From positions 2,170,001 through 2,234,000 of the forward strand of contig NZ_JAUSZD010000002.1 of assembly GCF_030817275.1 (NCBI RefSeq): a DNA stretch of 64,000 nt, written 5' to 3'. The position numbers were made by a program, and so were the translations under genes. How positions within the stretch are numbered: the first letter of the stretch is position 1; the number at the start of each line of letters is the position of its first letter. The DNA is from Paenibacillus sp. V4I7. Its GTDB lineage: Bacteria; Bacillota; Bacilli; Paenibacillales; NBRC-103111. Of this stretch, positions 5,618-35,311 are shown in pieces. Under the pieces are notes generated by a model that was not told the DNA's origin, searched no databases, and saw only the letters and a list, made by a program, of their open reading frames with translations.

Positions 5618-5643
5618 GTAATCGACAGATTGGGAGAGAGTCT

Positions 5644-14447: not shown

Positions 14448-14484
14448 TTAGGGAAGATTGAAACAGACTATAGGAGGTGCCGCT

Positions 14485-15612
14485 ATGGGGCGCATTCTTT
14501 TGAATCACGTGGAAAAACGTTATGGCAAAGATGGCGGATATGCCGTCAAAGATTTCCATTTGGAAATACACGACGGAGAATTTCTTGTCATGGTAGGTCC
14601 GTCCGGCTGCGGGAAATCAACGACACTCAGGATGATCGCCGGCTTGGAGGATATAACATCAGGGGAACTTTATATCGGAGATCAATTGGTCAACGATTTG
14701 CCGCCGAAGGACAGGGATATTGCGATGGTATTTCAAAATTACGCCTTATACCCGAACATGAGTGTGTACGAAAATATCGCGTTCGGTTTACGCCTGCGTA
14801 AAATGCCCAAACACGAGATCGATCTAGCAGTTAAGAAATCGTCGAGAATACTGGAAATCGAACCTTTTCTGGATAGGAAGCCAAGGCAACTCTCCGGCGG
14901 TCAGCGCCAACGTGTAGCCCTCGGCCGGGCCATTGTCCGTGATCCCCAAGTGTTCTTAATGGATGAGCCTCTATCCAATTTGGATGCTAAACTGAGAGTC
15001 CAAATGAGAACGGAGATCATTAAGTTACATAAGCAGCTTGGCGTGACGATGGTATACGTGACGCATGATCAGGTGGAAGCGATGACAATGGGACATCGCA
15101 TCGTCGTCATGAAGGACGGCATTATCCAGCAGGTAGATACGCCTCAGAAGATTTACAATAATCCGAGAAATATGTTTGTTGCCGGATTTATCGGAACGCC
15201 GCCTATCAATTTAATCGAGGGGAAAATTACGGAAAGCTCAGACGGCAAGCTGGAGTTCCATACCAACCGGTATTATTTGGAAATCCCCTTAAATCAATCG
15301 AACATTTTAAAGCAAAAAAATAAAGTGAACAGAACGGTTGTTTTAGGAATCCGCTGTGAGAATATCCATGTAAACCTGGAAGTGAATGATGCTAACACTC
15401 ATTCCCATTCTCGAATTAGCGGGGTTCAAAAGATCAACGAATTGATGGGGGCGGACATGTATTTGTACATGGATATCGGCATGCCCAATCTGCTGATTGT
15501 TCGAACACGTGCTGATCATAACTTTGAGGAAAATGAGAAGCTTGTTCTTTCTCTCGATATGCAGAAAGCGCTATTTTTCGATAAGGAGTCAAAGGACAAT
15601 CTATTGTACTAA
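14485..15612 (+). CDS. CUT1 sugar ABC transporter ATPase (MsmX/UgpC-like)
   Basis: Protein of 375 residues. It contains Walker A GPSGCGKST, the ABC signature LSGGQRQR, Walker B VFLMDEP and the H-loop VYVTHDQ, followed by a C-terminal TOBE/regulatory domain from about residue 240. This is the layout of the ATPase that powers CUT1 oligosaccharide importers. TAGGAGGTG lies six bases before the ATG at 14485. It heads an operon with the large binding protein and two permeases. No other importer ATPase is seen in the window, so it may also energise the permease pair at 50130-51991, as MsmX does for several importers in Bacillus subtilis. Confidence 0.93.
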   Translation: MGRILLNHVEKRYGKDGGYAVKDFHLEIHDGEFLVMVGPSGCGKSTTLRMIAGLEDITSGELYIGDQLVNDLPPKDRDIAMVFQNYALYPNMSVYENIAFGLRLRKMPKHEIDLAVKKSSRILEIEPFLDRKPRQLSGGQRQRVALGRAIVRDPQVFLMDEPLSNLDAKLRVQMRTEIIKLHKQLGVTMVYVTHDQVEAMTMGHRIVVMKDGIIQQVDTPQKIYNNPRNMFVAGFIGTPPINLIEGKITESSDGKLEFHTNRYYLEIPLNQSNILKQKNKVNRTVVLGIRCENIHVNLEVNDANTHSHSRISGVQKINELMGADMYLYMDIGMPNLLIVRTRADHNFEENEKLVLSLDMQKALFFDKESKDNLLY

Positions 15613-15633
15613 ATATACAGCGGAGGGATGGAG

Positions 15634-18591
15634 TTGAAGGTGTTTTTTCGAACCCGGGTATGGATTTCAATGATGCTGGCACTCGTATGTATGTTCAGTC
15701 AAACGCTTCCCGGTTTAGCGGATACAAGCCTTTCATCGGGGACAGATGATTCGAAGACAACGAGCATAGAAAACCAGGCGAATTCATCCAAGCAACTGGA
15801 TCCTTATTATTTTGAAAAGCTTGATCAATGGAAAAAGGAAGGCGCTTCGACCGATCATAATGGGAAGATTACAATACTCGGATCGAAGCTCGCCGGTCAG
15901 TCAGCCGACGCCAATGTTTCTATAGGGCCTTATAATGAAAAAAATGGCGTTTTGATCTGGAGTGCCCTAAGGGATGAATGGATCGAATATGAAGTGGATG
16001 TGGCGCAAGGCGGATTGTATACGATTGAAATATCGTACAATCCTTTCATCGGTACGAAATACCGTAAGCCGCTTGCGTTGAACTTGACTTTGGACGGCTC
16101 CAATCATTTTCTGGAATCTAAATCCGTGCAATTATACAGACATTGGAAGGATAAGCTTCCGATTCGTAAAGATGAAAGAGGCGATGAAATTCGTCCGACA
16201 GCCGAGGACGTGTCCGGATGGTTAACGTGGGAATTGCGCGACTTAGCCGGGGCATACGAAGATCCGCTGCAGTGGTACTTAAAGCCTGGGAAGCACAGAA
16301 TCCGTTTGGCGGGCAGTGACCCAATGGCGCTTGAATCGATTACGTTCAAAGCAGCGGGCAAAACGGCGGATTATAAAACGGTAAAAAGCGGACTGCCATC
16401 GGGAACCACTCCTGTGCAGGCGGATCCGATCGTTGTTGAAGCGGAACAGGTACAATGGAAAAACGATTCATCCATACCGCTCGCTTACGATAACGATATT
16501 GCCTCTATGCCCTATGTGCGGGGTCACATTACTTACAATGTGATTGATGGACAACGGTGGGCATCGAATAATCAAGAGATCAGTTGGAACTTTGACGTAC
16601 CGGAGACCGGTTACTACAAAATTGCCATGCGCGCGGATCAATCGTTCGTGTCCAACCGATCATCGTTCCGACAGATCATGATTAACGGTAAAGTGCCGTT
16701 TTCTGAACTGAAAGCGTACCGGTTTTTATATGCGTCAGGATGGAAAGAAATTGCGCTTGCCGACGATCAGGGCAAGCCCTATGAGTTTTATTTGCAAAAA
16801 GGTACCAATGAAATCTCGATGCGCGTCACACATGCTCCCTTGAAACCGATTGCTTACGATCTTGAAAATGTAATTTCCGATCTGAGAAAGCTATCCCGCG
16901 ATTTATTAACGCTGACAGGCGGGGTGGACGATAAATATCGGACATGGGATATTAATAAAGATCTTCCGGGATTTATTGAGCAGTTTAACGATTTAAACAA
17001 AAATTTGAACGGAATTCAAACACGCCTGGAAACGATAAACGATCGTTCGGATGCCGTTTCACAAGCCTTGTTAACTGTCAGGAAAGATATCGAATCGTTG
17101 CTGAAAGATCCAGATGAAATTCCATATAATACAGGCAAAATGATTACGCTGCAAGGCAAGTTGGCTGACCAGATCAAGCAGCTCAGCTTTCAACCACTCC
17201 AGTTGGATCGCCTTTATGTCGTTCCGGTTGAGAAACCGTTTCCAACCATGGTAGCGTCTTTTTACGAAAAAATGGAAGGTGCGGTCGTGAATTTTTTCAA
17301 TTCTTTTAAAGCAAAGGGAAGTAAGAAAACGGATGATAAAGTGCTCGATGTTTGGATGTTGCGCGGACGGGATTACGTCAATATGCTGCAAAGTTTGGCG
17401 GATGAAATGTTTACAACGCAAACAGGAATCAAGGTCAGGGTGAACCTGCTTAAAGATGAGAAGCTGCTCGTGTTGATGAACGCAGCAGGAATTGCGCCTG
17501 ACGTCGCGTTAGGCTTGCAGCAAGATATTCCGTTCGATTATGCCATTCGTAATGGTATATATGATCTGAAGCAATTTCCGGACTTCGAAACGTTCTATCA
17601 GCGTTTTGCCCCGGGTTCGTGGACGCCATTCCAATATAACGGAGGCTTCTACGGTGTACCTGAAACGCAAACGTTCCAAGTGATGTACTACCGGAAAGAT
17701 ATTTTGCAAGGTTTGGGCTTGCAAGTTCCCGACACGTGGGATGAACTTTACAAGATGCTGCCTGTGCTTCAACAGAACGGTATGAACTTCACACCAGTCG
17801 AACATAGTGTTTTCATGCAGATGCATGGAGCGGAATACTATCAGCAAGACGGTACGAAATCGGGTTTGAGCTCGGAAAAAGGATTCGAAGCGTTCAAGAA
17901 ATGGAGCGAATTGCAAAACAAATTTGCGATTGATCAAAGGATGGATAGTTTCTACCAGCACTTCCGGAGTGGAACGTATCCGATCGGCGTTGCCGATTTG
18001 AATACGTACCTTCAATTGACCGTGGCAGCACCCGAACTTAATGGTTTGTGGGGGGTCGCTCCGATTCCCGGAGTTCGGCAGGATGACGGGACGGTAGTTC
18101 GATGGTCGGGCGGAAACATGCAGGCTTCGACCATTATGAAAAACGGGAAGAATCCGCAGGAAAGCTGGGAATTTTTGAAATGGTGGACGTCTGCAGAAGT
18201 GCAGGAGAGGTTTGGAACAGATTTGGAAACGCTCAATGGTGTTACGTTCCGCTGGAACACATCCAATATTGATGCGTTCGTGCAGCTTCCGTGGAAAGAA
18301 GATGATCTCAAAGCCATATTGGAGCAATGGAAATGGTTTAGGGAAATTCCTAACGTACCCGGCAGCTACTTCATGGAACGTGAGCTGCTAAATGCGTGGA
18401 ACCGGACCGTGGTCGACGGGATGAACTATCGAACTTCACTGGAAATCGGAATGAAAGAAGTGGACCAAGAAATCCAAAGAAAACTGCAAGAGTTCAAATT
18501 TATCGATACAAACGGTAAAGTAATACGGTCGTTGAAACTGCCAGTTATTACGAAGCCTTGGGAAGGGGTGGATAAGTATGTTGAAAAGTGA
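15634..18591 (+). CDS. Large secreted substrate-binding protein with N-terminal jelly-roll domains
   Basis: Protein of about 985 residues. An N-terminal export signal (basic RTR, then a hydrophobic core, ending near LPGLADT) has no lipobox Cys. Two galactose-binding-like beta domains follow (about 40-250 and 265-405; WIEYEVDVAQGGLYTIEISY and ISWNFDVPETGYYKIAMRA). A helical linker spans about 410-560. The C-terminal ~420 residues form a family-1 solute-binding fold (KVLDVWMLRGRDY onward, with FYGVPETQTFQVMYYRKDIL). I prefer the TTG at 15634 because GGAGGG ends directly against the ATG at 15628. It should bind oligosaccharides for the permeases that follow. CUT1 binding proteins are normally about 430 residues, so this is more than double the usual size. 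Confidence 0.85.
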   Translation: MKVFFRTRVWISMMLALVCMFSQTLPGLADTSLSSGTDDSKTTSIENQANSSKQLDPYYFEKLDQWKKEGASTDHNGKITILGSKLAGQSADANVSIGPYNEKNGVLIWSALRDEWIEYEVDVAQGGLYTIEISYNPFIGTKYRKPLALNLTLDGSNHFLESKSVQLYRHWKDKLPIRKDERGDEIRPTAEDVSGWLTWELRDLAGAYEDPLQWYLKPGKHRIRLAGSDPMALESITFKAAGKTADYKTVKSGLPSGTTPVQADPIVVEAEQVQWKNDSSIPLAYDNDIASMPYVRGHITYNVIDGQRWASNNQEISWNFDVPETGYYKIAMRADQSFVSNRSSFRQIMINGKVPFSELKAYRFLYASGWKEIALADDQGKPYEFYLQKGTNEISMRVTHAPLKPIAYDLENVISDLRKLSRDLLTLTGGVDDKYRTWDINKDLPGFIEQFNDLNKNLNGIQTRLETINDRSDAVSQALLTVRKDIESLLKDPDEIPYNTGKMITLQGKLADQIKQLSFQPLQLDRLYVVPVEKPFPTMVASFYEKMEGAVVNFFNSFKAKGSKKTDDKVLDVWMLRGRDYVNMLQSLADEMFTTQTGIKVRVNLLKDEKLLVLMNAAGIAPDVALGLQQDIPFDYAIRNGIYDLKQFPDFETFYQRFAPGSWTPFQYNGGFYGVPETQTFQVMYYRKDILQGLGLQVPDTWDELYKMLPVLQQNGMNFTPVEHSVFMQMHGAEYYQQDGTKSGLSSEKGFEAFKKWSELQNKFAIDQRMDSFYQHFRSGTYPIGVADLNTYLQLTVAAPELNGLWGVAPIPGVRQDDGTVVRWSGGNMQASTIMKNGKNPQESWEFLKWWTSAEVQERFGTDLETLNGVTFRWNTSNIDAFVQLPWKEDDLKAILEQWKWFREIPNVPGSYFMERELLNAWNRTVVDGMNYRTSLEIGMKEVDQEIQRKLQEFKFIDTNGKVIRSLKLPVITKPWEGVDKYVEK

Positions 18592-19552
18592 TTCGCAAGT
18601 GCTTCCTGGTCTGCATACTTCCACAAACAGGGTGAAGAAAAAGAATCCTTCTTTTTTGCAAACGATTTGGTCATACCGGACGTCATATTTATTCGTAACA
18701 CCTTTTATGATCTGTTTCACTCTCTTTATTTTTCTTCCGGTTATTTCCGCTATTTTACTTAGCTTTACGCATTATAATTCAATTGAACCTCCCGAATTCG
18801 CCGGTTGGGACAATTTCCGGCGCATGCTTTCCCAGGATCTAATATTGATCAAACACGCTTTGCCGAACACCATCACGTTTGCATTAATTGTCGGACCGGG
18901 TGGATATATCGCCGCTTTTATGTTGGCGTGGTTAATTTCGATCTTGCCTGGTGTTTACCGTAAATGGTTTACGCTCGCCATGTATACACCATCCTTGGCG
19001 GGCATGGTTGCCATGAGCATTATTTGGACTCCGATGTTGTCCAGTGATCGGATCGGTTATTTGAATAGTGTTCTTCTTAATTTTGGCTTCATTAGCGAAC
19101 CGATATTATGGGTTAACAGCAAAGAATATTTGATGGGCTCCATGATTTTCGTCACGCTTTGGAAAAGCATGGGGATTGGTTTTCTAGCCATGCTGGCCGG
19201 TATTTTGAATGTGAATTCGGAACTGTACGAGGCTGGAAGGCTTGACGGTATTCGAAGCAGATTGGAAGAAATTTGGTACATTACAATTCCTGCGACAAAG
19301 CCGCAAATGCTTTTCGGCGCAGTCATGGCCGTCGTCGGGGCGATTCAATCCGGAGGAATAGGAACTGCGCTTTCAGGAATGAATCCGACACCTCAGTATT
19401 CCGGTCATGTGATCGTTACCCATATTGACGACTACGGCTTCACACGTTTTGAGCTCGGCTATTCGACTGCGTTATCCGTTCTCCTACTTATATTTATTTA
19501 TTTCGCCAATAAGCTATGTAATAAGTTATTCGGCACAAAGGAGGACGAATAA
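18578..19552 (+). CDS. Sugar ABC transporter permease, CUT1 type (LplB/UgpA-like)
   Basis: Integral membrane protein of 324 residues with about six transmembrane helices, the first at residues ~36-58 (LFVTPFMICFTLFIFLPVIS). The cytoplasmic EAA loop is seen as YEAGRLDGIRSRLEEIWYITIP, the site that contacts the ATPase. The start overlaps the end of the binding-protein gene by 14 bases, and GGAAGGGG lies nine bases upstream. It pairs with the permease at 19554 to form the channel of the first importer. Confidence 0.93.
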   Translation: MLKSDSQVLPGLHTSTNRVKKKNPSFLQTIWSYRTSYLFVTPFMICFTLFIFLPVISAILLSFTHYNSIEPPEFAGWDNFRRMLSQDLILIKHALPNTITFALIVGPGGYIAAFMLAWLISILPGVYRKWFTLAMYTPSLAGMVAMSIIWTPMLSSDRIGYLNSVLLNFGFISEPILWVNSKEYLMGSMIFVTLWKSMGIGFLAMLAGILNVNSELYEAGRLDGIRSRLEEIWYITIPATKPQMLFGAVMAVVGAIQSGGIGTALSGMNPTPQYSGHVIVTHIDDYGFTRFELGYSTALSVLLLIFIYFANKLCNKLFGTKEDE

Positions 19553-19553
19553 A

Positions 19554-20453
19554 ATGAATAACGTGGTAGCTCTCCGAAAATTCAATTCGTGGCGAAAACG
19601 CAAACGACTGCGCAAGTTCAGCCCTACAGAAAAAGTTTCGATGGTTATACTCGTTTTGATGAGTATCTTCTTGCTGCTGCCATTGATCTATATTTTTAAT
19701 CATGCGTTCAAACCGTATCATGAGCTGTTTATTTATCCGCCGAACATATTCGTAAGGGAGCCCTCTTTTCAAAATTTTTTGGAATTGGTTTCAATCACGA
19801 AGAGCACGGCAGTTCCGATAACCCGTTATCTTTTTAACAGCTTTGTCGTAACCGGACTAGCTGTCGTTGCAATCACCATCGTAAGCGCCATGTGTGCTTA
19901 TCCGATTTCTAAACACAAATTTCCTGGGCACAAAATTATGTTCGCGACGATCCTTTTGACGCTTCTGTTCGTGCCTGAGGTCGTTGCAATTCCCCGGTAC
20001 TTGATCGTCAGCAATTTGGGCATTTTTAATACGTATTGGGGGCACGTCCTGCCGCTCGTAGCCGTACCGACCGGCGTGTTTCTCATGAAACAGTTCATCG
20101 ATCAGCTACCGGATGAATTGCTCGATTCCGCTAGAATTGATGGAGCTAAAGAGTTTACGCTTTTTATAAAAATTGTCATACCGGTTGTTATGCCCGCTAT
20201 TGCGACCATCGGGATCATAGCATTCAATTCCGCATGGGGGAATACGGAAACATCAGCGATGTTCATGCAGGATGAAGAAATGAGAACATTCCCGTTCTAC
20301 ATGGAGACGTTGACCAGCGGTTTGGCGAACAGTGTGGCAAGGCAAGGCGCTGCGGCTGCGGCTGCGATGCTCCTGTTTTTACCGAATTTTATCATGTTTT
20401 TGGCGTTCCAAAGTAAGGTCATCGCTACAATGGCACATTCTGGTATCAAGTAA
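19554..20453 (+). CDS. Carbohydrate ABC transporter permease, CUT1 type (LplC-like)
   Basis: Membrane protein of 299 residues with about six helices; the first spans VSMVILVLMSIFLLLPLIYI. The EAA loop is LDSARIDGAKEFTLFIKIVIP. AAAGGAGG precedes the ATG at 19554, which starts one base after the previous stop; the longer open frame back to 19425 lies inside the upstream permease and is not used. It is the second channel subunit of the importer encoded from 14485. Confidence 0.93.
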   Translation: MNNVVALRKFNSWRKRKRLRKFSPTEKVSMVILVLMSIFLLLPLIYIFNHAFKPYHELFIYPPNIFVREPSFQNFLELVSITKSTAVPITRYLFNSFVVTGLAVVAITIVSAMCAYPISKHKFPGHKIMFATILLTLLFVPEVVAIPRYLIVSNLGIFNTYWGHVLPLVAVPTGVFLMKQFIDQLPDELLDSARIDGAKEFTLFIKIVIPVVMPAIATIGIIAFNSAWGNTETSAMFMQDEEMRTFPFYMETLTSGLANSVARQGAAAAAAMLLFLPNFIMFLAFQSKVIATMAHSGIK

Positions 20454-20486: not shown

Positions 20487-21959
20487 ATGGGCATTCAACA
20501 GAATGGGCGAGAAGTGGATAAATGGGAACGGTTCGAGCTTATGTTAAAGGGACCTTCTGGAGGAAATCCGTTTCAAGAAGTTCAGCTATCCGCCCGATTT
20601 CAATACAAGAACCTCATTGTTGAGCCAGAAGGCTTTTACGACGGAGACGGAACGTACCGGATCCGCTTCATGCCTGATCGAACTGGCGTTTGGCGCTATG
20701 TTACCCGCAGCAATCACAGTGATCTTGATGGTCACTCCGGCGAGTTCGTATGTGTGGAGCCATCTTCAGGGAACCACGGTCCCGTGAGGGTAAAGGATCA
20801 GTATTTGTTCGCTTATGAGGATGGTACGCCTTATATGCCGTTCGGCACTACGTGCTATCACTGGACTCACTACAATGAACAGCTGGAGGAGCTTACTTTA
20901 CAAACGTTGAAAGGGTCTCCTTTCAATAAAGTAAGGATGTGTCTTTTGCCTACGCAGGATATGCGTCCCCCTTTGCGGTTGGCTTTCGTAGGAACAAATC
21001 CGGAAGATATTGACAAAACGCGATTCAATACCGATTTTTTTGCCCATTTGGAAAAGAGGATCGACGATTTGATACAGCTTGGCATAGAAGCCGATCTCGT
21101 CTTATTCCACCCGTACGATAAGGGGTATTGGGGTGTCGACAACATGGATGCGGAAGCTGATCTTTTTTACTTGCGTTACGTGATCGCGCGCTTATCCGCT
21201 TACCGCAACGTCTGGTGGTCTCTATGCAATGAATACGACTTTAATAAATTTAAAACAGTGGACGACTGGGATCGACTTATCCAATTCGTGCAGCATCGCG
21301 ACCCATATCAACATCTTCGTTCGATCCATAACGGCACAAAGATGTATAAATCCTCTTGGCTGTACGATTATTCCAAGCCTTGGATTACTCATCAAAGCAT
21401 ACAACATTGGGATGCTGAGCTTACGACAAGCTGGCGGGAGGCGACTCCGAAACCGATCGTCATTGACGAAATATCCTATGAAGGCAATAGCTCTAGACGT
21501 TGGGGCAATATTTCCGGAGAGGAAATGACCCACCGATTTTGGGAAGCCATATCCCGAGGCGGGTTTGTCGGGCATGGTGAATCATTCATTGAGCGGGAGA
21601 CAAGGGCATGGATATCCTCCGGGGGTAAACTGTACGGAGAAAGTACGGAGAGAATCGCTTTTTTGCGAAAAATCATGGAAGAGGGTCCAGCTGATTGGAT
21701 GAAGGCATGGCAACTAGGAACTTATGGGCTCTTGTATTTCGGTCATCATCAGCATGCTTATAAATACGTTGATTTACCTGAAAATGCTTCCTACCACATC
21801 GAGATCATCGATACTTGGAAAATGACCATTACACCGGTTAAAGGCACGTTTCGCGGAAGAAGCAGGGTTGACCTTCCAGGGAAATCGAATATCGCTTTAC
21901 GCATATTGAAGGTAAGTGAAGCAAACTCGGCAGGAGGAGATCAGTCTGAAGTTAACTAA
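20487..21959 (+). CDS. DUF5060/DUF4038 (GH140 apiosidase-like) protein, copy 1
   Basis: Protein of 490 residues, no signal peptide. The first ~95 residues form the DUF5060 beta-sandwich (FELMLKGPSGGNPF, YRIRFMPDRTGVWRY). A TIM barrel of the DUF4038/apiosidase-like group follows, and a small C-terminal beta domain (IDTWKMTITPVKGTF) ends the protein. Catalytic candidates are Glu249 in LCNEYD and Glu328 in VIDEISYEGN. The characterised GH140 enzyme releases apiose from RG-II, but this branch with DUF5060 is not known to me to have been tested. GAGGGGG precedes the ATG. It follows the importer permeases and is next to a close paralogue. Confidence 0.78.
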   Translation: MGIQQNGREVDKWERFELMLKGPSGGNPFQEVQLSARFQYKNLIVEPEGFYDGDGTYRIRFMPDRTGVWRYVTRSNHSDLDGHSGEFVCVEPSSGNHGPVRVKDQYLFAYEDGTPYMPFGTTCYHWTHYNEQLEELTLQTLKGSPFNKVRMCLLPTQDMRPPLRLAFVGTNPEDIDKTRFNTDFFAHLEKRIDDLIQLGIEADLVLFHPYDKGYWGVDNMDAEADLFYLRYVIARLSAYRNVWWSLCNEYDFNKFKTVDDWDRLIQFVQHRDPYQHLRSIHNGTKMYKSSWLYDYSKPWITHQSIQHWDAELTTSWREATPKPIVIDEISYEGNSSRRWGNISGEEMTHRFWEAISRGGFVGHGESFIERETRAWISSGGKLYGESTERIAFLRKIMEEGPADWMKAWQLGTYGLLYFGHHQHAYKYVDLPENASYHIEIIDTWKMTITPVKGTFRGRSRVDLPGKSNIALRILKVSEANSAGGDQSEVN

Positions 21960-23400
21960 GGAAGTGGAACGCTGGGGAGTGTTTGAGTTGACCTTGGAAG
22001 GTCCCTCCGAAGGAAACCCGTTTAATGACATACAGCTTGGCGCTCAATTCAAGAAGGGTTTGCTCTATGCTGAAGCGGATGGATTTTACGATGGGAATGG
22101 GAAGTACCGCATACGGTTTATGCCGAAGGAAGAAGGCGTTTGGGCTTTTACAACGTCAAGCAATTGCTCGGTTCTGGACGGGATTGTGGGAGAGTTTACC
22201 TGCACAATTTCTGAGGACGGCAATCATGGACCCGTCCAAGTAAAGAATGCTGTTCATTTTCAATATGCGGATGGTACACGGTTTATCCCGGTTGGCACGA
22301 CTTGTTATGTATGGCATCTGCAAAGCGAACAACTTCAAGAGCAAACGCTGCGTACTCTGCAGCAATCGCCATTTAACAAAATCCGCATGTGTGTTTTCCC
22401 AAAAAGTTATGTGTTCAATAACGCCGAGCCGGATGCCTATCCTTTTGAAGGTTCGCCGGAACAAGGTTTCGATTTCTCCCGCTTTTGCCCGGAATATTAT
22501 ACCCATTTAGAACGAAGGGTAAAGGATTTGGCAGATTTGGGCATAGAGGCGGATCTTATACTGTTTCATCCGTATGACGAAGGACGGTGGGGCTTCGATG
22601 AGATGTCACCCGATGAGGATGAGCATTACCTACGCTATGTGATCGCACGTCTCGGCGCTTACCGCAACGTGTGGTGGTCGCTTGCCAATGAATACGACTT
22701 AATGAAGCACAAAAAGACCGAGGATTGGACGCGCTTGTTTCGTATTGTTCAGGAATACGATTATGGCGGACACTTACGCTCGATCCATAATTGTCGAACA
22801 TGGTATGATTTCGGCGTTCCATGGGTGACACATGCGAGTATCCAACATAACGACGTGAGAGTTGCATCGGAAGCCACCAAACAATACGGAAAACCAGTCA
22901 TTATTGACGAGTGTGGGTACGAGGGTAATCTCGATACTCGCTGGGGGAGTTTGACACCTGAAGAGTTAGTTTGCCGGATTTGGGAAGGAAATTGCCGCGG
23001 GGGCTATGTAACTCATGGCGAAACGTATTTGAATGCGGAGCAAGTGCTTTGGTGGTCGCATGGAGGGGAACTTCATGGACGAAGCGTTCGGAGAATCGAA
23101 TTTATGCGTGGTATTCTTCAAGATGCGCCGGGTCAAATGACATACAGCAGCGATCGGCTTGATGCCGCCACATTGGAGGTAAGGGGCGAATATTATTTGC
23201 AGTACTTTGGCCCTCATCGTTTTGCATTCCGCGAATTTTCGCTGCCTGATGGTAAATATGAAGTAGATCTGATCGATACATGGAACATGACCATCACGCC
23301 ACTAACTGGGTCGTATGAAGGACGATTCCGAATCGATTTGCCTGGGAAGCTTTATTACGCTTTGAGAATTCGAAAAATGACTGATTCGTCTAAAAAATAG
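21946..23400 (+). CDS. DUF5060/DUF4038 (GH140 apiosidase-like) protein, copy 2
   Basis: Protein of about 484 residues and clear paralogue of the preceding gene, with the same three domains. Equivalent Glu residues are Glu249 in LANEYD and Glu322 in IIDECGYEGN. No ATG fits: the best ribosome site, AGGAGGAG at 21932-21939, lies six bases before a CTG at 21946, and that CTG gives an N-terminus lining up with copy 1. A GTG at 21916 is the alternative but has no such site. The start lies 14 bases inside copy 1, so the genes are probably translationally coupled. Tandem duplication with divergence suggests two related substrates. Confidence 0.8.
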   Translation: MKLTKEVERWGVFELTLEGPSEGNPFNDIQLGAQFKKGLLYAEADGFYDGNGKYRIRFMPKEEGVWAFTTSSNCSVLDGIVGEFTCTISEDGNHGPVQVKNAVHFQYADGTRFIPVGTTCYVWHLQSEQLQEQTLRTLQQSPFNKIRMCVFPKSYVFNNAEPDAYPFEGSPEQGFDFSRFCPEYYTHLERRVKDLADLGIEADLILFHPYDEGRWGFDEMSPDEDEHYLRYVIARLGAYRNVWWSLANEYDLMKHKKTEDWTRLFRIVQEYDYGGHLRSIHNCRTWYDFGVPWVTHASIQHNDVRVASEATKQYGKPVIIDECGYEGNLDTRWGSLTPEELVCRIWEGNCRGGYVTHGETYLNAEQVLWWSHGGELHGRSVRRIEFMRGILQDAPGQMTYSSDRLDAATLEVRGEYYLQYFGPHRFAFREFSLPDGKYEVDLIDTWNMTITPLTGSYEGRFRIDLPGKLYYALRIRKMTDSSKK

Positions 23401-23415
23401 CTTAATCAGGGAGAG

Positions 23416-25782
23416 ATGTCATTGGAACATTTGCGGAAATCAACTGGAAGTACAAAGTTATGGTATGAAAAACCGGCAAAAACGTGGAATGAGGCATTGC
23501 CGATCGGTAACGGACGTCTGGGTGCGATGATATTCGGAAAAGTAAATCAAGAACGCCTGCAATTGAACGAAGACTCGGTTTGGTACGGCGGACCGGTGAA
23601 CGGAGACAATCCGGATGGTCGGCGATATTTTCCGGAAGTAAGGCGTTTATTAAGTAAAGGGAAACAAATTGAGGCAGAAGAGTTGGCGCAAATGGGGTTA
23701 ATGTCTAATCCCAAATCTATGCGTCCTTATCAACCGTTAGGTGATTTGCATTTCTACCACGACGGGGAAAAAAAGATGATTTCCAATTATTACAGGGATT
23801 TGGACATTGAGCAGGGTATCGCCCATGTCAGCTATTGCCTAAACGACGTTCTCCATGTAAGGGAATTGTTCAGTAGTGCGGTCGATCAGGTGATGGTTAT
23901 CAGGATCACGTGCAATCGGCCTGCAACATTGAATCTCAGGATGCATTTGAGCCGTAGACCGTTTGACGAAGGTACGCAAAGGATGGCCCATGATACTTTG
24001 ATGATGAGCGGAGAAAGCGGAAAAGATGGTGTGACGTACTGCACGGCAGTGAAAGCTGTTCCAGAAGGTGGAACGGTTGAAGCAATCGGTGATTTCCTCA
24101 CGGTTCATCAGGCGGAAGCTGTTACCATCTATCTGTCGGCTGCAACAACATTTCGTCATGAGGACCCTCAAGCCGAGTGCATTCAACAGCTGGTTCATGC
24201 AGCAAGCAAGGGATTTGAGCGGGTTAAGAAGGATCACGTATCGGATCATGTCTCTAAATTTGGGCGTGTAAAGCTGGAGCTGGACAGTCCCGAAGATGCC
24301 GGTGAAACCGAAATACTACCTACCGATGCTAGGTTGCAACGATACAAAGAAGGCGGGGAAGATCCCGGGCTTATTTCGCTGTTTTTCCAATATGGGCGTT
24401 ACTTGCTAATGGCCAGTTCCCGCCCTGGTTCAAATCCTGCGAATTTGCAGGGCATTTGGAATGAAAGCTTTACTCCGGCGTGGGAGTCCAAATATACGAT
24501 TAATATTAACACGGAGATGAATTACTGGCCTGCGGAAATTTGTAATTTGTCCGAATGTCATGAACCTTTGTTCGATTTGATCGATCGCATGCGTCCTCAT
24601 GGCAGGAAAACAGCACAAAAAGTGTACGGCTGCGGAGGGTTCGTCGCTCATCATAATACCGACATGTGGGGATCAACTCAAATTGAAGGGAATCATATAC
24701 CAGGTTCGATTTGGCCGATGGGTGCCGCTTGGTTGTCTCTTCACCTCTGGGAACACTATCGGTTCGGCTTGGATGACCAATTTCTTCGTGAACGGGCGTA
24801 CCCTGTGATGAAGGAAGCGGCGGAATTTTTCCTGGATTACTTATTTGAAGACGAAAAGGGACGTCTTGTTACGGGCCCCTCTACCTCTCCCGAAAATAAA
24901 TTCATCGGTCCCGACGGAAGCGTGGGTTGTCTGACTATAGGTCCTTCCATGGATACCCAAATCATCTATACATTGTTCAGCGCTTGTATGGAGGCTTCCA
25001 ACATTCTTCAAACGGATGAAACAATACGGGAGAAATGGGAAACTACACTTCGCAAGCTGCCGCAACCGCAAATTGGCAAACACGGGCAGCTGCAGGAATG
25101 GGTGGAGGATTGGAACGAAGTCCATCCTGGTCACCGCCACATCTCCCACTTGTTCGCGCTCCATCCTGGAGAAATCATTCATGTGAGGCATACACCGGAA
25201 TGGGCGCAAGCGGCTAAACGTACGCTGGAACGCAGGTTGGAGAACGGAGGCGGCCAAACGGGATGGAGCCGAGCTTGGATCATTAATTTTTTTGCGCGCT
25301 TGGAAGATGGGGAACAATCTTATGAGCATCTTCGCTTGCTGCTTTCCCTCTCGACATTACCGAATTTGTTCGACAATCATCCACCGTTTCAGATTGACGG
25401 AAATTTCGGCGGAACTGCGGGAATTGCTGAGATGCTCCTGCAATCGCACCGTGGGGAGATTGCGCTGCTTCCGGCCTTGCCGAAGGCTTGGCAAGGCGGT
25501 AGAATCAGCGGTTTTCGCGCTCGTGGCGGTTTCGAGATCGAGATGGAATGGGAGAAGGGCGAGCTTACCCACTGTGTCATAAAAGCGACGAAAAGCCAAT
25601 TATGCACCGTAACATGCAGACGCCCGCAATCGGCTCTTATTGTGGAAACAGATGGGAAACCAGTTGAAACCATTACTTCGGAGTATTTGACCAAGTTCGA
25701 CGCTGTTGAGGGTAAGACGTACGTGCTCACAGCAAGGAAGCAGACTCAGCTTGAAGAAGCGAAGATGGTAACCAACATATAG
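23416..25782 (+). CDS. GH95 family alpha-L-fucosidase/alpha-L-galactosidase, second copy
   Basis: Protein of 788 residues with the same motifs as the GH95 at 5644: [20 protein letters not shown] at the start, [12 protein letters not shown], the acid Glu493 in STSPEN and Asp661 in QIDGNFGG. A beta-rich C-terminal domain follows ([16 protein letters not shown]). No signal peptide. The ribosome site AGGGAGAG directly abuts the ATG at 23416, so a TTG at 23422 could be the true start; the difference is two residues. It is the last gene of the importer operon and ends 20 bases before an insertion sequence. Two GH95 enzymes in one locus suggest separate fucose- and galactose-type substrates. Confidence 0.93.
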
Positions 25783-28588: not shown

Positions 28589-29686
28589 ATGGAATTTATT
28601 AGACCTGAGAATTATTTGCCAAGAAAGCAAAATATACCGGACTTGAAGAAATACGGAATCGGCTTAATCGGCTGCGGGAGCATTGCGAATACGGCGCATT
28701 TACCCGCCTATCGTAAATATGGATTGCATATTGCGGCTGTCTGCGACGTCAACGAGGAAGCGGCTCGCGCAACAGCGCAAAAATTTGATATTCCGCACTG
28801 GACGACCGATGTCAATGAACTATTGCAAAATGATGAAGTAGGCATTATAGATTTGGCGATCCATCCTGAACCGAGACTGGAAGTGCTGAAACTGATTGGC
28901 AAGGCACCTCGGCCGGTATTATGCCAAAAGCCGTTAGCGCTGGATTTGGAGCATGCTCAGGTGCTTAGACAAGAGGCGAATCGGTTAGGTATCGTGCTTG
29001 GCGTGAACCAACAGGCTCGCTGGGCTCCAGCTCACAAAGCGCTGAAGATGGTACTTGAGCAGGATCTCATAGGTGAGGTATACAGCATTCACCATGATAT
29101 GCGTTCATTCCAAGATCAAGCTGGCTGGTGGTGGACGAAAATGAACAATTTCAATATTGTAGATCACGGAGTCCACTATGTGGATTTGTGCCGATATTTT
29201 AACCCTAATCCCGAAGAAGAGTGGTCCCGGGTTCACTGCACGACAGCGCAGTTGAAGCAGCAGAACGCGATTGACCCGCTGATCTATTCGGCTAACGTCG
29301 AGTTTGGTCCGAAAGGCGGACGAAACCCGCTCATGGCTTCGCTTCATTTTAACAATATTGCAAAAGCAAGCCGTTCCCACAGCAACACATGGTGGATTGA
29401 CGGGACGGAAGGAAGCCTCTGGTGTACGCAAGAAACTCTCTATATGGCGCTGAACAAGCACAAAAACGTCGTGCACGAGATCAAGCTGAAAGGAACTTGG
29501 TTCCCTGACGCCTTTGCAGGCTCCATGATCGCATTCATGACTGCCATGGAGGAAGGCAAGCGCCCGCCGGTCACTCCGGAAGATAACATACAGACCGTGG
29601 CCATGACGACTGCAATGGTTATTTCCAGTCAAGAAGGATGCGTGGTTGAAAGAACGGACGTGTTGAAAGGAAGCGATCAATCATGA
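28589..29686 (+). CDS. Gfo/Idh/MocA-family oxidoreductase
   Basis: Protein of 365 residues. The Rossmann motif GLIGCGSIANTAHLPAY is at about residues 25-41. The usual EKP motif appears as CQKPLAL, keeping the catalytic Lys. The stretch NIVDHGVHYVDLCRYF supplies the Asp/His pair used in catalysis. The C-terminal half is the family's alpha/beta dimerisation domain. AAGAGGTGAT precedes the ATG. It is the first gene of a long operon and overlaps the isomerase-like gene by four bases; the pair is a common unit for interconverting sugars or sugar acids by oxidation and isomerisation. The substrate is not known. Confidence 0.9.
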   Translation: MEFIRPENYLPRKQNIPDLKKYGIGLIGCGSIANTAHLPAYRKYGLHIAAVCDVNEEAARATAQKFDIPHWTTDVNELLQNDEVGIIDLAIHPEPRLEVLKLIGKAPRPVLCQKPLALDLEHAQVLRQEANRLGIVLGVNQQARWAPAHKALKMVLEQDLIGEVYSIHHDMRSFQDQAGWWWTKMNNFNIVDHGVHYVDLCRYFNPNPEEEWSRVHCTTAQLKQQNAIDPLIYSANVEFGPKGGRNPLMASLHFNNIAKASRSHSNTWWIDGTEGSLWCTQETLYMALNKHKNVVHEIKLKGTWFPDAFAGSMIAFMTAMEEGKRPPVTPEDNIQTVAMTTAMVISSQEGCVVERTDVLKGSDQS

Positions 29687-30531
29687 ACAAACTTGGTTTT
29701 ATGAGTTACATATATCTTGGCTGGAGCGCGGAAGCAATCGCCGAAGACGCGAGCAAACACGGGTTAGCTTATGTGCAGATCGACCCGAAACAAGCTATGC
29801 AGGTGATGGACGATGAGCCGTTTTCTCTGACTCGTGCTGAAAAAATCCGTACCATCTTTGAGAATAAAGGGATTTCCGTCGTAAGCTTGTCGGGATACAC
29901 CAATTTGCTGAACCCTAACCTACAGAAAAGGGAAGACAAGTTAAAACAGCTCGAGAAGATGATCGACCTATGTTCAGCTTACGGTACACGGTATATCGCG
30001 ACAGAAACAGGTAGCCTACACCCTACCAACGCTTGGCGCGATTTTGAAGGAAACCGGACCCCTGAAGCATGGGATGAGCTGTTGAAAATGGTTGACCGTT
30101 TGCGGAACCGGGCTGTGAAGAACAGTGCCGTATTGTTGATCGAAGGATTCGCGCTTAATGTGCTGGCGAGTCCGGAACAGGGTGTCCGTTTGATGGAACA
30201 ACTCGGAACCGAAGGGTTGGCGCTCATTATGGATCCTTTCAATTATTTGACGCAAGAAGATTTGAGCCGACAGGAAGAGGCTATGGCAAACATATTCGAC
30301 TGCATTGCCCCTTATTCTCCGATTGCGCATGCCAAAGACGCACTTTACGGAGACGGAGGATTTACAACACCTCGGGTAGGGGCGGGACAGGCGGATTGGA
30401 GCGTGTATGCAGCGCTGCTTGCCAGTCGATTGCCGGATGTTCCGTTGATTCTGGAGCATGCAAAGCCGGAAGAAGTAGCGGAATGTTTGGATTTGATCCG
30501 AAAATCCTTTGAAAGTGCAGTTAGGATGTGA
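29683..30531 (+). CDS. Sugar isomerase/epimerase (AP-endonuclease-2-type TIM barrel)
   Basis: Protein of 282 residues of the xylose-isomerase-like TIM-barrel family. Probable metal ligands are visible at strand ends: Glu in IATETGS, Asp in LIMDPFNY, His in IAHAKDA and Glu in LILEHAK. The start overlaps the oxidoreductase stop by four bases (ATGA). No signal peptide. It probably isomerises or epimerises a monosaccharide or sugar acid released by the locus, working with the preceding oxidoreductase. Confidence 0.87.
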   Translation: MNKLGFMSYIYLGWSAEAIAEDASKHGLAYVQIDPKQAMQVMDDEPFSLTRAEKIRTIFENKGISVVSLSGYTNLLNPNLQKREDKLKQLEKMIDLCSAYGTRYIATETGSLHPTNAWRDFEGNRTPEAWDELLKMVDRLRNRAVKNSAVLLIEGFALNVLASPEQGVRLMEQLGTEGLALIMDPFNYLTQEDLSRQEEAMANIFDCIAPYSPIAHAKDALYGDGGFTTPRVGAGQADWSVYAALLASRLPDVPLILEHAKPEEVAECLDLIRKSFESAVRM

Positions 30532-30540
30532 AGGATTTCT

Positions 30541-32190
30541 ATGACGCATAAACCGAGATTGGGTATACAGGGTCCTGTCGTCGCATGGCAGGACTCATGG
30601 GCAGGCGAAGCTTCAGAGCTTATTATGCGGACGGGAACGGGAAGTATTTGTCCGTCTCAAGACCGAAAGCCTGAGCCTGAAGAATTTCTACACGCCTTGC
30701 ACGAGTTGGAAGCGGACTTTTATGTTCATCATGTGATTCCAGAAATGAAAGGGTATTCAGAGCTCTTGGCAGATATCGCGGAAGCGGGATTAGACATTTG
30801 CCTCGGCAACGAATACGGAAATATAAACGGGCCCTGGACGGAAGGAACGAACCGGTACGACGTGCCCGATGAGACGATCATGCAAGCAGCGCGCTCGGGT
30901 CGGTGTATCGGACTGCTTTACGATGAACCGGAGCATCTGCAAATAAATGCCGGACAGTATCGGCATGACGGCTGGTTCCCGCACTGGGGCAGCACCGATG
31001 ATAGGAATTTGGAAGAGTCGCGCGACAAGGTTGAGCAGTCGGTTCAATCCCATGTCCAGCATGTACAGAGCGTTGTGGAGCAAGCCGGATCACCCCGCAT
31101 AACCATGCCATTAATTGCGGAGCATGTGTTTCCTACCATGTTCCACACGTTTGCCAGAGCGGGAATGGACATTTGTCCCAAGATTATGAAGGAATCGTTT
31201 CAATCCTTGCAGTTATCTACCGCATTGGGAGCGGCCAAACAATATGACAGAGCTCTATGGATTTGTGCCGATTTGTGGGGCCCGGATACGGGAAGGTGGT
31301 TCACCCGTTTTCAAGGATTTCCCGGCCACTCTCCGCAGGAATTTGAGTCCGCTTTGAAAATGGGCTACTTGATGGGACCGTCCCATTTGTTCGTGGAAAA
31401 TATCGATGTTCTGTTCAAACATACTTCTATGGGATTTGAAACAACCGAATTCGGTGAAGTGTGGAAAGAGTTCGTCCGTAAATTTATCCCTGAGCATACG
31501 TTGACCTGGCACCATTCGCAGGCGAATCCAGATATCGTAATCATTCATTCGGATGACGGTAATTACGGGCAAAACGAAAGGTTGTTCGGCAATAGGACAC
31601 TGGTTGATTTGGGCGGTTCCCAAAGCGTATTTCACATCTGGCATTTGCTTAGCCGAGGAACGATACCTGCTCACGGCAGCTGCATGCATATCCCAGGCTA
31701 CGACTTTCCAAGACACGAATTGAAAAGAGACGTAGCTTATGAACAATTTCCGTTAGAACAAGGGTATGTTTCAAGCGATGGAAGAAGGGTGCATCCGTTA
31801 TTTTATCCGGTTCAAAATGTCCTTGCTTTTGACAATCAAGTCAGCGCAGAACAGCTGGGCCGACCGAAATTGATTATGGTTGGAGGGTCGTCTCTTTCCG
31901 CCGAAACACTGTTTGCTGTCATTAAAAGGGCAGAAGATGGGGGAGTCGTCGTGATCGCAGAATGGTTGCTCCCTCCTGATTGTTCGGAAAAGCTAAGGAA
32001 GAGTGGAAAAATGGGCTTTGGAAAGTGGATCGTCACGAACGATTTTTTGGATGAACGAGTGAAAGAAATCGTTGAACCCTTTTTGGGGAAGGAACGCTGC
32101 TGGACGCAGCGTTTTGGCACGACAGAAGTAAGGATGTACCCAAAGGACAGGGAAGGGTATACACTCGATTTTGAGATTGCAGCTGTATGA
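30541..32190 (+). CDS. Unrecognised protein, possible glycoside hydrolase of a new family
   Basis: I do not recognise this 549-residue protein as a named family. It has no signal peptide. The first ~330 residues look like a TIM barrel: alternating strands and helices with acidic residues at strand ends, notably LLYDEPEH (Asp128, Glu129, Glu131) and LFVENID (Glu286). The spacing of these Glu is compatible with the acid/base and nucleophile of clan GH-A enzymes. From about residue 390 an alpha/beta domain follows (KLIMVGGSSLSAETLFAVIK, GGVVVIAEWLLPPDC), like the trimerisation domain of GH42. It starts nine bases after the isomerase and overlaps or abuts the GH2 gene. The function is inferred from context only. 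Confidence 0.6.
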   Translation: MTHKPRLGIQGPVVAWQDSWAGEASELIMRTGTGSICPSQDRKPEPEEFLHALHELEADFYVHHVIPEMKGYSELLADIAEAGLDICLGNEYGNINGPWTEGTNRYDVPDETIMQAARSGRCIGLLYDEPEHLQINAGQYRHDGWFPHWGSTDDRNLEESRDKVEQSVQSHVQHVQSVVEQAGSPRITMPLIAEHVFPTMFHTFARAGMDICPKIMKESFQSLQLSTALGAAKQYDRALWICADLWGPDTGRWFTRFQGFPGHSPQEFESALKMGYLMGPSHLFVENIDVLFKHTSMGFETTEFGEVWKEFVRKFIPEHTLTWHHSQANPDIVIIHSDDGNYGQNERLFGNRTLVDLGGSQSVFHIWHLLSRGTIPAHGSCMHIPGYDFPRHELKRDVAYEQFPLEQGYVSSDGRRVHPLFYPVQNVLAFDNQVSAEQLGRPKLIMVGGSSLSAETLFAVIKRAEDGGVVVIAEWLLPPDCSEKLRKSGKMGFGKWIVTNDFLDERVKEIVEPFLGKERCWTQRFGTTEVRMYPKDREGYTLDFEIAAV

Positions 32191-32233
32191 ATCGAATCCA
32201 AGCGGTACGGTTTCGGTAGAGGGGGAGATAAGT

Positions 32234-35200
32234 TTGGAGCAAATCAAACATCAGGATCCGTTTGCGGAGATTGCCTTCCGCGAACATCCCGGAAATAAAG
32301 ACGAATTGCGGGAGATTCCTCCTGTAGCTTATGAAAAAAAATATTTCACGCCGGGATCGGAAAAAGCGACGAACGTATCTCTTTACACCTACGAGGAACA
32401 AATCGCATTTTTCCATGAAGAGTTGAAGCTGCTGCGTGAGAAGTACAGCCCGTTTATGAGAAATTTGGCTTCCTCCTCTACAATGCGCCGTAACCGACAG
32501 GCATGTAAGGAGTTTCAATTTCGCTATCAATCGTCTGAGGACGCCAACTTTACGAATGTGCTGGAAGGAGCAGGGGATTGGGAATCAGTAATGGTTCCTG
32601 ATTTCCGCGGACCGACGGGAGAAAACGGCAAATGGACAGGATTTTACCGCAGTGAATTTCCCTATGCTCCCGTTCCCGAAGGAAAGAGAGTCTACCTCGT
32701 GTTTAAAGGGGTTGACTATAAAGCGACGGTATATCTCAATCGCAAGTGCATTGGCAGCCATGAGGGGTTCTTTGCTCCTTTTGAATTTGACGTAACTGAT
32801 TTGCTGCAGGACCTCAACACGCTGGTCGTTGAAGTGTATAACGATTATCCGATGATGGGGGTAGGCGGTACGAAGCTGGATGGGGATAAAATGTACGCGG
32901 CGACTGGCCCGGGATGGGACGATGCATACAGCGGCTGGAGCCACTGTCCACCAGGTGCCGGCATATACAATTCGGTCTATTTGGAAGAGCGTTCGACTTT
33001 GTTTATTCAGGATATTTTTGTGCGGCCGAATATCGATGACGGCTTCGTGGAAGTATGGATTGATGTGGTTAATACGACGAATAATCTGAAGGAAAACTTC
33101 GAATTGATTCTTGATATCATGCCGAAAAACTTCACCGGTCAGGGAATCGGACCCATCTCGTTTCAAGCGGCCTACGCCGGTCCGGGTCTCAATTATTACC
33201 GCTACAAGGTGGATTTCCCGTCTTTCCGGATGTGGGAGCCGGAAACTCCTTTTTTATATATGGCTCGCGCTCAAGTAAAGAACAATACAGAATATTTGGA
33301 TACCCAAGACCGCACCTTCGGCATGCGAAAATTTCATATGGATGAAAAGGACACCCCGAAAGGTACGTTGTATCTCAATAACCAACCGATTATCTTAAGA
33401 GGCGCCAATGAAATGGGGCATTTGCAGCAATGTGTTATGAACAACGATTTCGAGCAGTTAATTGACGATATTCTGATCGCGAAACTTGCTCATATGAACT
33501 TTTACCGCATCACACAGCGTCCTGTTCAAGAAGAAATATATGACTATTTCGATATGCTCGGCATGATGCATCAATGCGATCTTCCAACGTTCGGATTTAT
33601 CCGCCGCAACCAATTTGTTGAGGGAGTCCGGCAGGCGGCGGAGATGGAGAGACTGATCCGCAGTCACCCGTCTTCGGTCATGGTATCGCTGATTAATGAG
33701 CCTTCACGTACTGAAAAGAGGCGAAAAGGCCACCGCCATTTGCATCGTAACGAACTGGAAGCCTTCTTCGTTGCCGCCAGACAGGCGATTTTCATTGAAA
33801 ATCCGGATCGTGTAGTAAAAAACGCGGACGGGGATTACAATCCTCCTACCCACGAAGGACTGCCCGATTTTCATTGTTATAACATGTGGTATACGAACAA
33901 TACGATCTCTGTAGGTAAAATGTATAAGGGTTTTCTTCCTTCGATTAGAACGGGATGGAAGGCGGGATGCGGAGAGTATGGCACGGAAGGCTTGGATAAT
34001 GTCCAGTTGATGATGAATCGTTATCCGAAAGAATGGCTTCCCTCCTCTGAGAAGGAGCATTGGCTGCCAAACCAAATTAAAGGCGCTCAAACCTACGGTT
34101 TGCATGGGGATTGGTATGCCGAACAGCATACGATTCGCGAGTGGGTCGAGGTGAGCCAGAGGCACCAATGTTTGGCGACGAAGCTGATGACAGATGCATG
34201 GCGAAGGAGGGCTGATTTGGTGGTTTCCACCGCCATTCACCTGCTCATTGATGCATGGCCATCCGGCTGGATGAAAGCTCTCGTTGGTGTTGACAGGATT
34301 CCGAAACCGGCGTACTTCACGTATAAGGAATGTCTGGAACCGGTACGCATCCATCTAAGAAGCGACAGGTGGAAGGTGTATGAAGGGGAAACGCTTGAAA
34401 TAGAAGCCTGGCTCTTGAACGATACGGCGAAGGAATATGACCGGTGCCGTGTCGTCGCTACGCTTCGGGATGATAACCGGGATTACGGCAATTATGAAAT
34501 GACAGGCACTGTGCTTAAGGCAACGTCCAGATATGCAGGCACGATCAGCTTTTCGGTTCCATCGATAATAGATAGACAGACCTTGTACATGGATGCCTGC
34601 TTATTGGATGAAAACGGGGAATTGATAAATAAGGAAAGATTTTCTTTCGAGGCATTTGCGAAAATGAGACATCCGAAATCGCAGAAGATCGCTTTTCTAG
34701 ATACGGAATCAGAACTGCTCTGCTCCTTGCTAAACATAGAAGGTCAATCTTATGACGGAGATACGCAAAAAGAGGGCACGCTTGTCGTTTCTTCTAAGGA
34801 AGCATTTGATCGCCATCAAGTATCCATTCTAGAGAAGGTCCGTAATGGTGCGGTAGCCGTTATGATTCTACGCAGCCCAGACAGTGACACTTGGGATATC
34901 GAGAATACGACGGTCCGAACAGTCAAATTACGTGGGATGTATACCTTAGCCGTTCAAGCCGATGACCCGCACTTGCAGTGGATGAAAGCGGACGATTTCT
35001 CCTATTTTTATCATTTGACGAACGACAGGATAGATGGGATAACCAATTGTTACCTGCAAGGAGAAGGGATCGAACCTATTGTGTTCGCATACCACCCTCA
35101 AGGCGAGCCCGATGGCAAACCAAAGCTGCCTGTCGTGGGAGTGAAACGGCTCGGAGAAGGGCAAGTCTACTTCGTATGCTTACCATTATCGGGTAGAGTG

Positions 35201-35311
35201 GGATTCAACCCAACGCTGGACCGATTCTTAATTTCCTTATTAAAGGAGAGAGGAGTGGATGAGAATTGTACGCCATTATTAGCCGAGATAAGCAAAAACG
35301 GGCAGAAATAG
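32234..35311 (+). CDS. GH2-family glycoside hydrolase
   Basis: Protein of about 1025 residues, no signal peptide. A jelly-roll sugar-binding domain lies at ~85-270 (WTGFYRSEF, VFKGVDYKATVYLNRKCIGSH), then an Ig-like domain, then a TIM barrel from ~370 (LYLNNQPIILRGANEMGH). The acid/base is Glu489 in SLINEPS and the nucleophile Glu581 in GCGEYGTEGL. An Ig-like domain and a C-terminal alpha/beta domain follow. I start at TTG 32234, with GGGGGAG seven bases upstream; the open frame extends back to 32171 inside the previous gene. The barrel lacks the LacZ-type signature, so it is a divergent GH2; arabinopyranosidase, glucuronidase or galacturonidase are options. Confidence 0.85.
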   Translation: MEQIKHQDPFAEIAFREHPGNKDELREIPPVAYEKKYFTPGSEKATNVSLYTYEEQIAFFHEELKLLREKYSPFMRNLASSSTMRRNRQACKEFQFRYQSSEDANFTNVLEGAGDWESVMVPDFRGPTGENGKWTGFYRSEFPYAPVPEGKRVYLVFKGVDYKATVYLNRKCIGSHEGFFAPFEFDVTDLLQDLNTLVVEVYNDYPMMGVGGTKLDGDKMYAATGPGWDDAYSGWSHCPPGAGIYNSVYLEERSTLFIQDIFVRPNIDDGFVEVWIDVVNTTNNLKENFELILDIMPKNFTGQGIGPISFQAAYAGPGLNYYRYKVDFPSFRMWEPETPFLYMARAQVKNNTEYLDTQDRTFGMRKFHMDEKDTPKGTLYLNNQPIILRGANEMGHLQQCVMNNDFEQLIDDILIAKLAHMNFYRITQRPVQEEIYDYFDMLGMMHQCDLPTFGFIRRNQFVEGVRQAAEMERLIRSHPSSVMVSLINEPSRTEKRRKGHRHLHRNELEAFFVAARQAIFIENPDRVVKNADGDYNPPTHEGLPDFHCYNMWYTNNTISVGKMYKGFLPSIRTGWKAGCGEYGTEGLDNVQLMMNRYPKEWLPSSEKEHWLPNQIKGAQTYGLHGDWYAEQHTIREWVEVSQRHQCLATKLMTDAWRRRADLVVSTAIHLLIDAWPSGWMKALVGVDRIPKPAYFTYKECLEPVRIHLRSDRWKVYEGETLEIEAWLLNDTAKEYDRCRVVATLRDDNRDYGNYEMTGTVLKATSRYAGTISFSVPSIIDRQTLYMDACLLDENGELINKERFSFEAFAKMRHPKSQKIAFLDTESELLCSLLNIEGQSYDGDTQKEGTLVVSSKEAFDRHQVSILEKVRNGAVAVMILRSPDSDTWDIENTTVRTVKLRGMYTLAVQADDPHLQWMKADDFSYFYHLTNDRIDGITNCYLQGEGIEPIVFAYHPQGEPDGKPKLPVVGVKRLGEGQVYFVCLPLSGRVGFNPTLDRFLISLLKERGVDENCTPLLAEISKNGQK

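Follow-up and report, generated by a model that had tools for sequence, protein, structure and literature searches.

A 549-residue protein encoded in a 64,000-nucleotide stretch of the Paenibacillus sp. V4I7 genome (the window, analysed here as a whole) is, with a probability of about 0.6, an exo-glycosidase that acts inside the cell, belongs to a family without a name, resembles the trimeric GH42 and GH164 enzymes in its build and helps to degrade side chain A of rhamnogalacturonan II (RG-II). RG-II is the most complex plant pectin and is present in all land plants. The target is a conserved and unclassified barrel protein, its gene is co-inherited with that of the chain A enzyme GH138 and often adjoins a fucosidase gene, and this makes it a concrete candidate for acting on the RG-II bond that the best-studied degrader, Bacteroides thetaiotaomicron, leaves uncut. 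Its hydrolase activity, its action on chain A and the roles of its catalytic residues are what we infer from the comparisons below. The features of the window are collected in Table 1.

Table 1. Features of the window; positions count from its first nucleotide
Feature	Position	Strand	Basis or remark
Target gene, 549 aa, unclassified glycosidase-like protein	30541..32190	+	ATG start, relatives, no family match
Ribosome-binding site GAAGGA	30530..30535	+	5 bases ahead of the target ATG
Predicted (beta/alpha)8 barrel, residues 1-320	30541..31500	+	DSSP of two AlphaFold models
Strand-4 end motif YDEPEH, residues 127-132	30919..30936	+	Candidate general acid E129 or E131
Strand-7 end CADLW, residues 242-246	31264..31278	+	D244 on the clan GH-A nucleophile strand
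Strand-8 end motif FVENID, residues 284-289	31390..31407	+	E286
Predicted C-terminal alpha/beta domain, residues 332-549, like the GH42/GH164 trimerisation domain	31534..32187	+	VIA alignments
GH29 alpha-L-fucosidase, recurrent target neighbour	1570..2874	+	PF01120 E 6e-87; 6gn6 E 1e-107
GH138 alpha-D-galacturonidase orthologue, 903 residues, RG-II chain A, putative functional partner	2906..5617	+	
GH95 gene (fucosidase or L-galactosidase type)	5602..8019	+	PF22124 E 8e-172
ABC importer genes: ATPase, solute-binding protein, two permeases	14458..20453	+	
Apiosidase-like (GH140-type) gene 1	20487..21959	+	PF13204 E 1e-16
Apiosidase-like (GH140-type) gene 2	21916..23400	+	PF13204 E 7e-17
Second GH95 gene	23416..25782	+	PF22124 E 7e-181
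Gfo/Idh/MocA oxidoreductase	28589..29686	+	PF01408 E 6e-15
Xylose-isomerase-like (AP_endonuc_2) sugar isomerase or epimerase	29683..30531	+	PF01261 E 2e-22
GH2-type gene	32171..35311	+	Closest in the PDB to GH2 enzymes of beta-glucuronidase-like type

A conserved family without a match in Pfam, NCBIfam or the PDB sequences

The open reading frame of the target is a real gene, as judged by its ribosome-binding site, its full-length relatives and an excess of changes at third codon positions. Comparison with L002 gave 23, 20 and 102 changes at codon positions 1, 2 and 3, and comparison with L005 gave 99, 64 and 297. Twenty full-length relatives share 51–93% identity with the target; they come mostly from Paenibacillus, with one from Cohnella and one from a Microbacterium MAG. 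Within the order the gene was found in 41 of 395 genomes, and at the scale of the phylum in one of 398, this one being the window's own, with one actinobacterial MAG contig in addition. We looked for plasmid-borne homologues and found none, and inspection of the N-terminal sequence revealed no evident signal peptide. The sequence-only reading from which this work started had described a 549-residue frame between a sugar isomerase and a GH2 gene, and both neighbours were borne out. One genome (G592; L052 8202–9887 and 9895–11490) carries the target in tandem with a paralogue of 31% identity and without GH138, an arrangement that perhaps reflects a changed substrate.

Searches with the target, with a profile of 21 relatives and with four divergent members against Pfam, NCBIfam and the PDB sequences returned no credible match. 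The 21 family members left PF02449 (GH42) unmatched at E values up to 10. The four divergent members, which include the 31%-identical paralogue, likewise had no Pfam match up to E 10, and with this the idea that distant members might link the target to a known family was rejected. Assignment of the target to GH42 by sequence was rejected on an hhalign probability of 0.9% against the GH42 alignment. Alignment of the target profile with nine neighbouring families gave hhalign probabilities of at most 1% each, and membership in GH2, GH138, GH140, GH29 or GH95 was rejected at this level (≤1% each). The AP_endonuc_2 family was also rejected, there being no Pfam match and an hhalign probability of 0.2% against the neighbouring isomerase family. 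GH164 entries are present among the PDB sequences, although none of them was matched, and a literature search found no characterised member of the target family. The family is real and glycosidase-like, and with respect to Pfam, NCBIfam and the PDB sequences it is unclassified. The suggestion that the protein is the founding member of a new family holds only in so far as the search turned up no characterised member; dozens of uncharacterised members already exist.

Predicted fold and active site

AlphaFold models were built for the full-length protein, on the alignment of 21 sequences (pLDDT 78, pTM 0.86), and for the barrel only (pTM 0.82). Eight strand-helix repeats are present in both models and their strands agree; the full-length model adds an alpha/beta domain behind the barrel. 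Foldseek placed GH42 at the top for the full-length model (E 4.6e-10), and VIA returned GH42 and GH164 enzymes as the closest structures (Z 18–19 over 404–430 residues, 8–12% identity), in alignments that run from model residue 1 or 5 to residue 548 or 549. The best 50 VIA rows for the barrel-only model are all glycosidases or transglycosidases, with GH42, GH164, GH35 and GH5_18 in the lead (Z 17–19) and beta-amylase and GH99 lower. Since F420 enzymes, epimerases and others come out nearly level in Foldseek when the barrel is used alone, the clear GH42 signal is a property of the complete architecture; the likeness of the predicted barrel fold is weak functional evidence. As modelled, the target shares the GH42 architecture of a barrel and a trimerisation-like domain (VIA Z 17–19 over 404–425 residues, model residues 5–549). 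The TIM barrel and the GH42-like alpha/beta domain that had been read from the sequence both appear in the AlphaFold models, but the likeness to GH42 is confined to the fold, as the hhalign value of 0.9% indicates.

Closest in fold, along almost all of the chain and at 8–13% identity, are the GH42 beta-galactosidases and alpha-L-arabinopyranosidase (1kwg, 6lvw, 5xb7), in which, as in the target model, a barrel is followed by an alpha/beta trimerisation-like domain. They differ from the target in size (about 650–700 residues against 549) and in strand 7, which in the target has no Glu nucleophile. The GH164 beta-mannosidase Bs164 (6t7g) agrees with the target in domain layout and fold score (Z 18–19), at 8–10% identity. 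In Bs164, strands 4 and 7 carry Glu160 and Glu297 respectively (PMC7105311); strand 7 of the target carries D244. The GH5 exo-mannosidase Op5Man5 (7bob) matches the target model in Foldseek with E values of 4e-5 to 1e-4 and, unlike the target, has Glu156 and Glu281 on strands 4 and 7. Both GH164 and Op5Man5, the latter with no significant sequence similarity to GH42, are precedents for a GH42-type architecture in enzymes that do not resemble GH42 in sequence (PMC7105311, PMC8233224).

The motifs singled out at the outset, YDEPEH with E129 and E131 and FVENID with E286, were found at the residues listed in Table 1 and are near-invariant across the 21 relatives. In 44 full-length sequences, including the 31%-identical paralogue, D128, E129, E131, H132 and E286 are invariant. 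The full set of invariant charged residues at strand ends in these sequences comprises E91 (strand 3), D128, E129, E131 and H132 (strand 4), E194 (strand 5), K214, K217 and E218 (strand 6), D244 and D249 (strand 7) and E286 (strand 8). Of all charged residues between positions 1 and 320, 12 of the 20 on the strand-end face are invariant compared with 3 of the 68 elsewhere (Fisher P 2e-7), a clustering that is the mark of an enzyme.

Enzymes of clan GH-A have the acid/base Glu on strand 4 and the nucleophile Glu on strand 7. Strand 4 of the target is predicted at residues 122–128, with D128-E129-P130-E131 at its end, whereas strand 7 (239–243/244) ends in the invariant D244; E286 comes after strand 8 (282–286) in both models. 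The clan GH-A barrel and strand-4 Glu are thus present in the predicted structure, and the strand-7 Glu is not. Canonical clan GH-A catalysis is not supported, since strand 7 ends in Asp244 and Glu286 belongs to strand 8, and the proposal of a retaining clan GH-A enzyme with E131 and E286 is not supported in that form. The strand-4 DEP resembles the NEP of clan GH-A, which favours E129 over E131. The general acid/base would then be a strand-4 Glu, probably E129 and less likely E131, and the second carboxylate would be D244 on strand 7 or E286 on strand 8.

Co-inheritance with GH138 and gene context

The product of the gene at 2906–5617 is, by sequence comparison, clearly a GH138 alpha-D-galacturonidase. 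It matches PDB 6hzf (BPa0997) at E 7e-211 with E294 and E361 conserved, and it matches NCBIfam NF049878 over the full length with 1020.8 bits, short of the curated cut-off of 1300; Pfam gave no match. In Bacteroides, BT0997 takes alpha-GalA off RG-II side chain A (PMC7939467), and GH138 is reported to co-occur with GH137, GH139, GH142 and GH143, which have the same polymer as substrate (PMC7922503). GH138 is specific to side chain A of RG-II, and its gene in the target's cluster would mark that cluster as a chain A system.

A full GH138 orthologue occurs in 38 of the 395 genomes of the order, and all 38 are among the 41 target carriers (P 7e-50, computed without correction for genome relatedness; since the genomes are related, the co-occurrence P values given here are inflated). 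For the window's own genus, the members listed gave 11/11 against 0/19 for the target and GH138. Only three target carriers are without GH138 (G592, G755 and G771), and G592 and G755 additionally lack close GH29 and GH2 orthologues. The spacing between target and GH138 is 62–111 bp in six copies, and the two genes adjoin on a Microbacterium (actinobacterial) contig of 69.5% GC (L020). Their pairing is kept in differently composed clusters and across phyla, and also where a genome has a second copy (G507, G521). At the level of gene linkage the RG-II context of the target family is firmly supported, and the earlier choice of RG-II as the likely substrate gains direct support from the linkage to GH138.

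GH29 is almost as constant a companion as GH138: 36 of the 41 target genomes have an orthologue of the GH29 gene, at 36–47 bp from the target in six, and 33 of the 41 have one of the neighbouring GH2 gene. The target, GH138 and GH29 form a constant core, surrounded by GH2 and GH95, and this combination points towards side chain A. The RG-II degradome of B. thetaiotaomicron has GH138, apiosidase, GH95 and GH2 types in common with the target cluster; B. thetaiotaomicron uses BT1002 for fucose, whereas the target clusters pair the orphan with GH29. Given the ABC importers of the cluster and a target without signal peptide, import followed by intracellular trimming is probable. Oligosaccharides would be taken up by the ABC importer and then shortened by one sugar at a time in the cytoplasm, where the target would act alongside the alpha-galacturonidase (GH138), the fucosidase (GH29) and the GH2 and GH95 enzymes.

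Several distant target clusters also hold a BT_1020-type propeller (PF24067), GH28 or GH78. Full-length PF24067 was found in 18 of the 395 genomes of the order, 11 of these 18 with the target (P 7e-8). The window's own genome gave no match to PF24067 (GH143-type), so full RG-II use there is not established. The same genome was also searched for a GH141 (BT1002-type) fucosidase, the lack of which would have favoured the methyl-xylosidase reading discussed below. It has 23 beta-helix matches, and one candidate of fitting size, compared with the PDB sequences, showed a weak match to BT_1002 (E 2e-9). At one locus the target is followed immediately downstream by a beta-propeller of BT_1020 type (PF24067; L016 9708–11567), which includes a sialidase-like CBM domain, and then by GH28.

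Candidate reactions and further genes of the cluster

B. thetaiotaomicron cleaves 21 of the 22 linkages of RG-II, and the one that stays uncut is 2-O-Me-Xyl-alpha1,3-Fuc (PMC7939467). Our leading choice, put forward tentatively, is that the target family consists of 2-O-methyl-alpha-D-xylosidases that cut this bond of chain A. An exo-acting GH29 needs the methyl-xylose gone first, which makes an orphan travelling with GH29 and GH138 a natural candidate; removal of the methyl-xylose by the target would expose fucose to the co-inherited GH29 exo-fucosidase. Such an enzyme would work with a GH42-like barrel whose catalytic carboxylates are arranged unlike those of clan GH-A. The searches made found no literature on Paenibacillus GH138 clusters or on an RG-II methyl-xylosidase. 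GH42-like barrels usually cut equatorial bonds, and the 2-O-Me-Xyl-alpha1,3-Fuc bond is axial; a role as beta-uronidase is for this reason nearly as likely. The target would then be a beta-D-uronidase (glucuronidase or galacturonidase) of chain A, the GH42-like counterpart of the Bacteroides GH2 enzymes BT0996 and BT0992. Chain A holds two equatorial beta-uronide bonds (PMC7939467), a type usually cut by clan GH-A-like barrels, and the invariant K214, K217, R105 and R256 in the barrel part could hold a carboxylate. The neighbouring GH2 orthologue is absent from 8 of the 41 target genomes, but a glucuronidase-like enzyme of this kind already exists in the other 33, often adjoining, and further GH2 genes are common in these bacteria. 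The Asp on strand 7, where clan GH-A has its Glu nucleophile, also argues against a uronidase, and we hold this role to be possible but doubtful. Were it correct, the target would still represent a family of glycosidases of which no member has been described, and one whose GH42-like scaffold carries the conserved carboxylates at unusual places.

It is rather improbable that the target acts on another pectic or fucosylated glycan, with GH138 only carried along in a large polysaccharide cluster common to both: the window is rich in enzymes that are not specific to RG-II (LacZ-type GH2, GH42, GH106) and three target carriers miss GH138, yet the pair persists in unlike clusters, as second copies and across phyla. 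A departure from hydrolysis altogether, with the target as a metal-dependent, xylose-isomerase-like isomerase or epimerase of a released chain A sugar, appears very unlikely. The invariant carboxylates E194, E218, D244 and E286 end strands 5, 6, 7 and 8, a pattern that we take to be reminiscent of the metal sites of xylose isomerase, and isomerases and epimerases are also among the Foldseek matches (3kws at E 5e-5; 7dz4, 2hk0 and 6wn6 at E 9e-6 to 2e-5). However, the full-length architecture is that of GH42 and GH164, isomerases are absent from the best 50 VIA rows of either model, and the hhalign probability against the neighbouring isomerase family is 0.2%; the invariant DEPE cluster of strand 4 is glycosidase-like.

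Further observations concern other genes of these clusters. An aldose 1-epimerase gene (L013 9629–10654) overlaps the end of the target by 4 bases, which suggests handling of a released aldose. In six genomes (G461, G491, G503, G507, G521 and G565), one or two in-frame TGA codons were flagged within the match to the target-adjacent GH2 gene; these may be effects of the match ends or signs of broken genes. In the window, about 580 extra residues of no confident family precede the solute-binding protein domain (15628–18591), and a DDE transposase gene (25980–27302) lies between the second GH95 gene and the Gfo/Idh/MocA gene, a position from which it is absent in most related clusters. The gene at 35266–37344 encodes a 692-residue protein with only sub-threshold matches to GH76, GH88 and GH127 and no PDB match; it is kept in close orthologous clusters and is a second orphan enzyme candidate.
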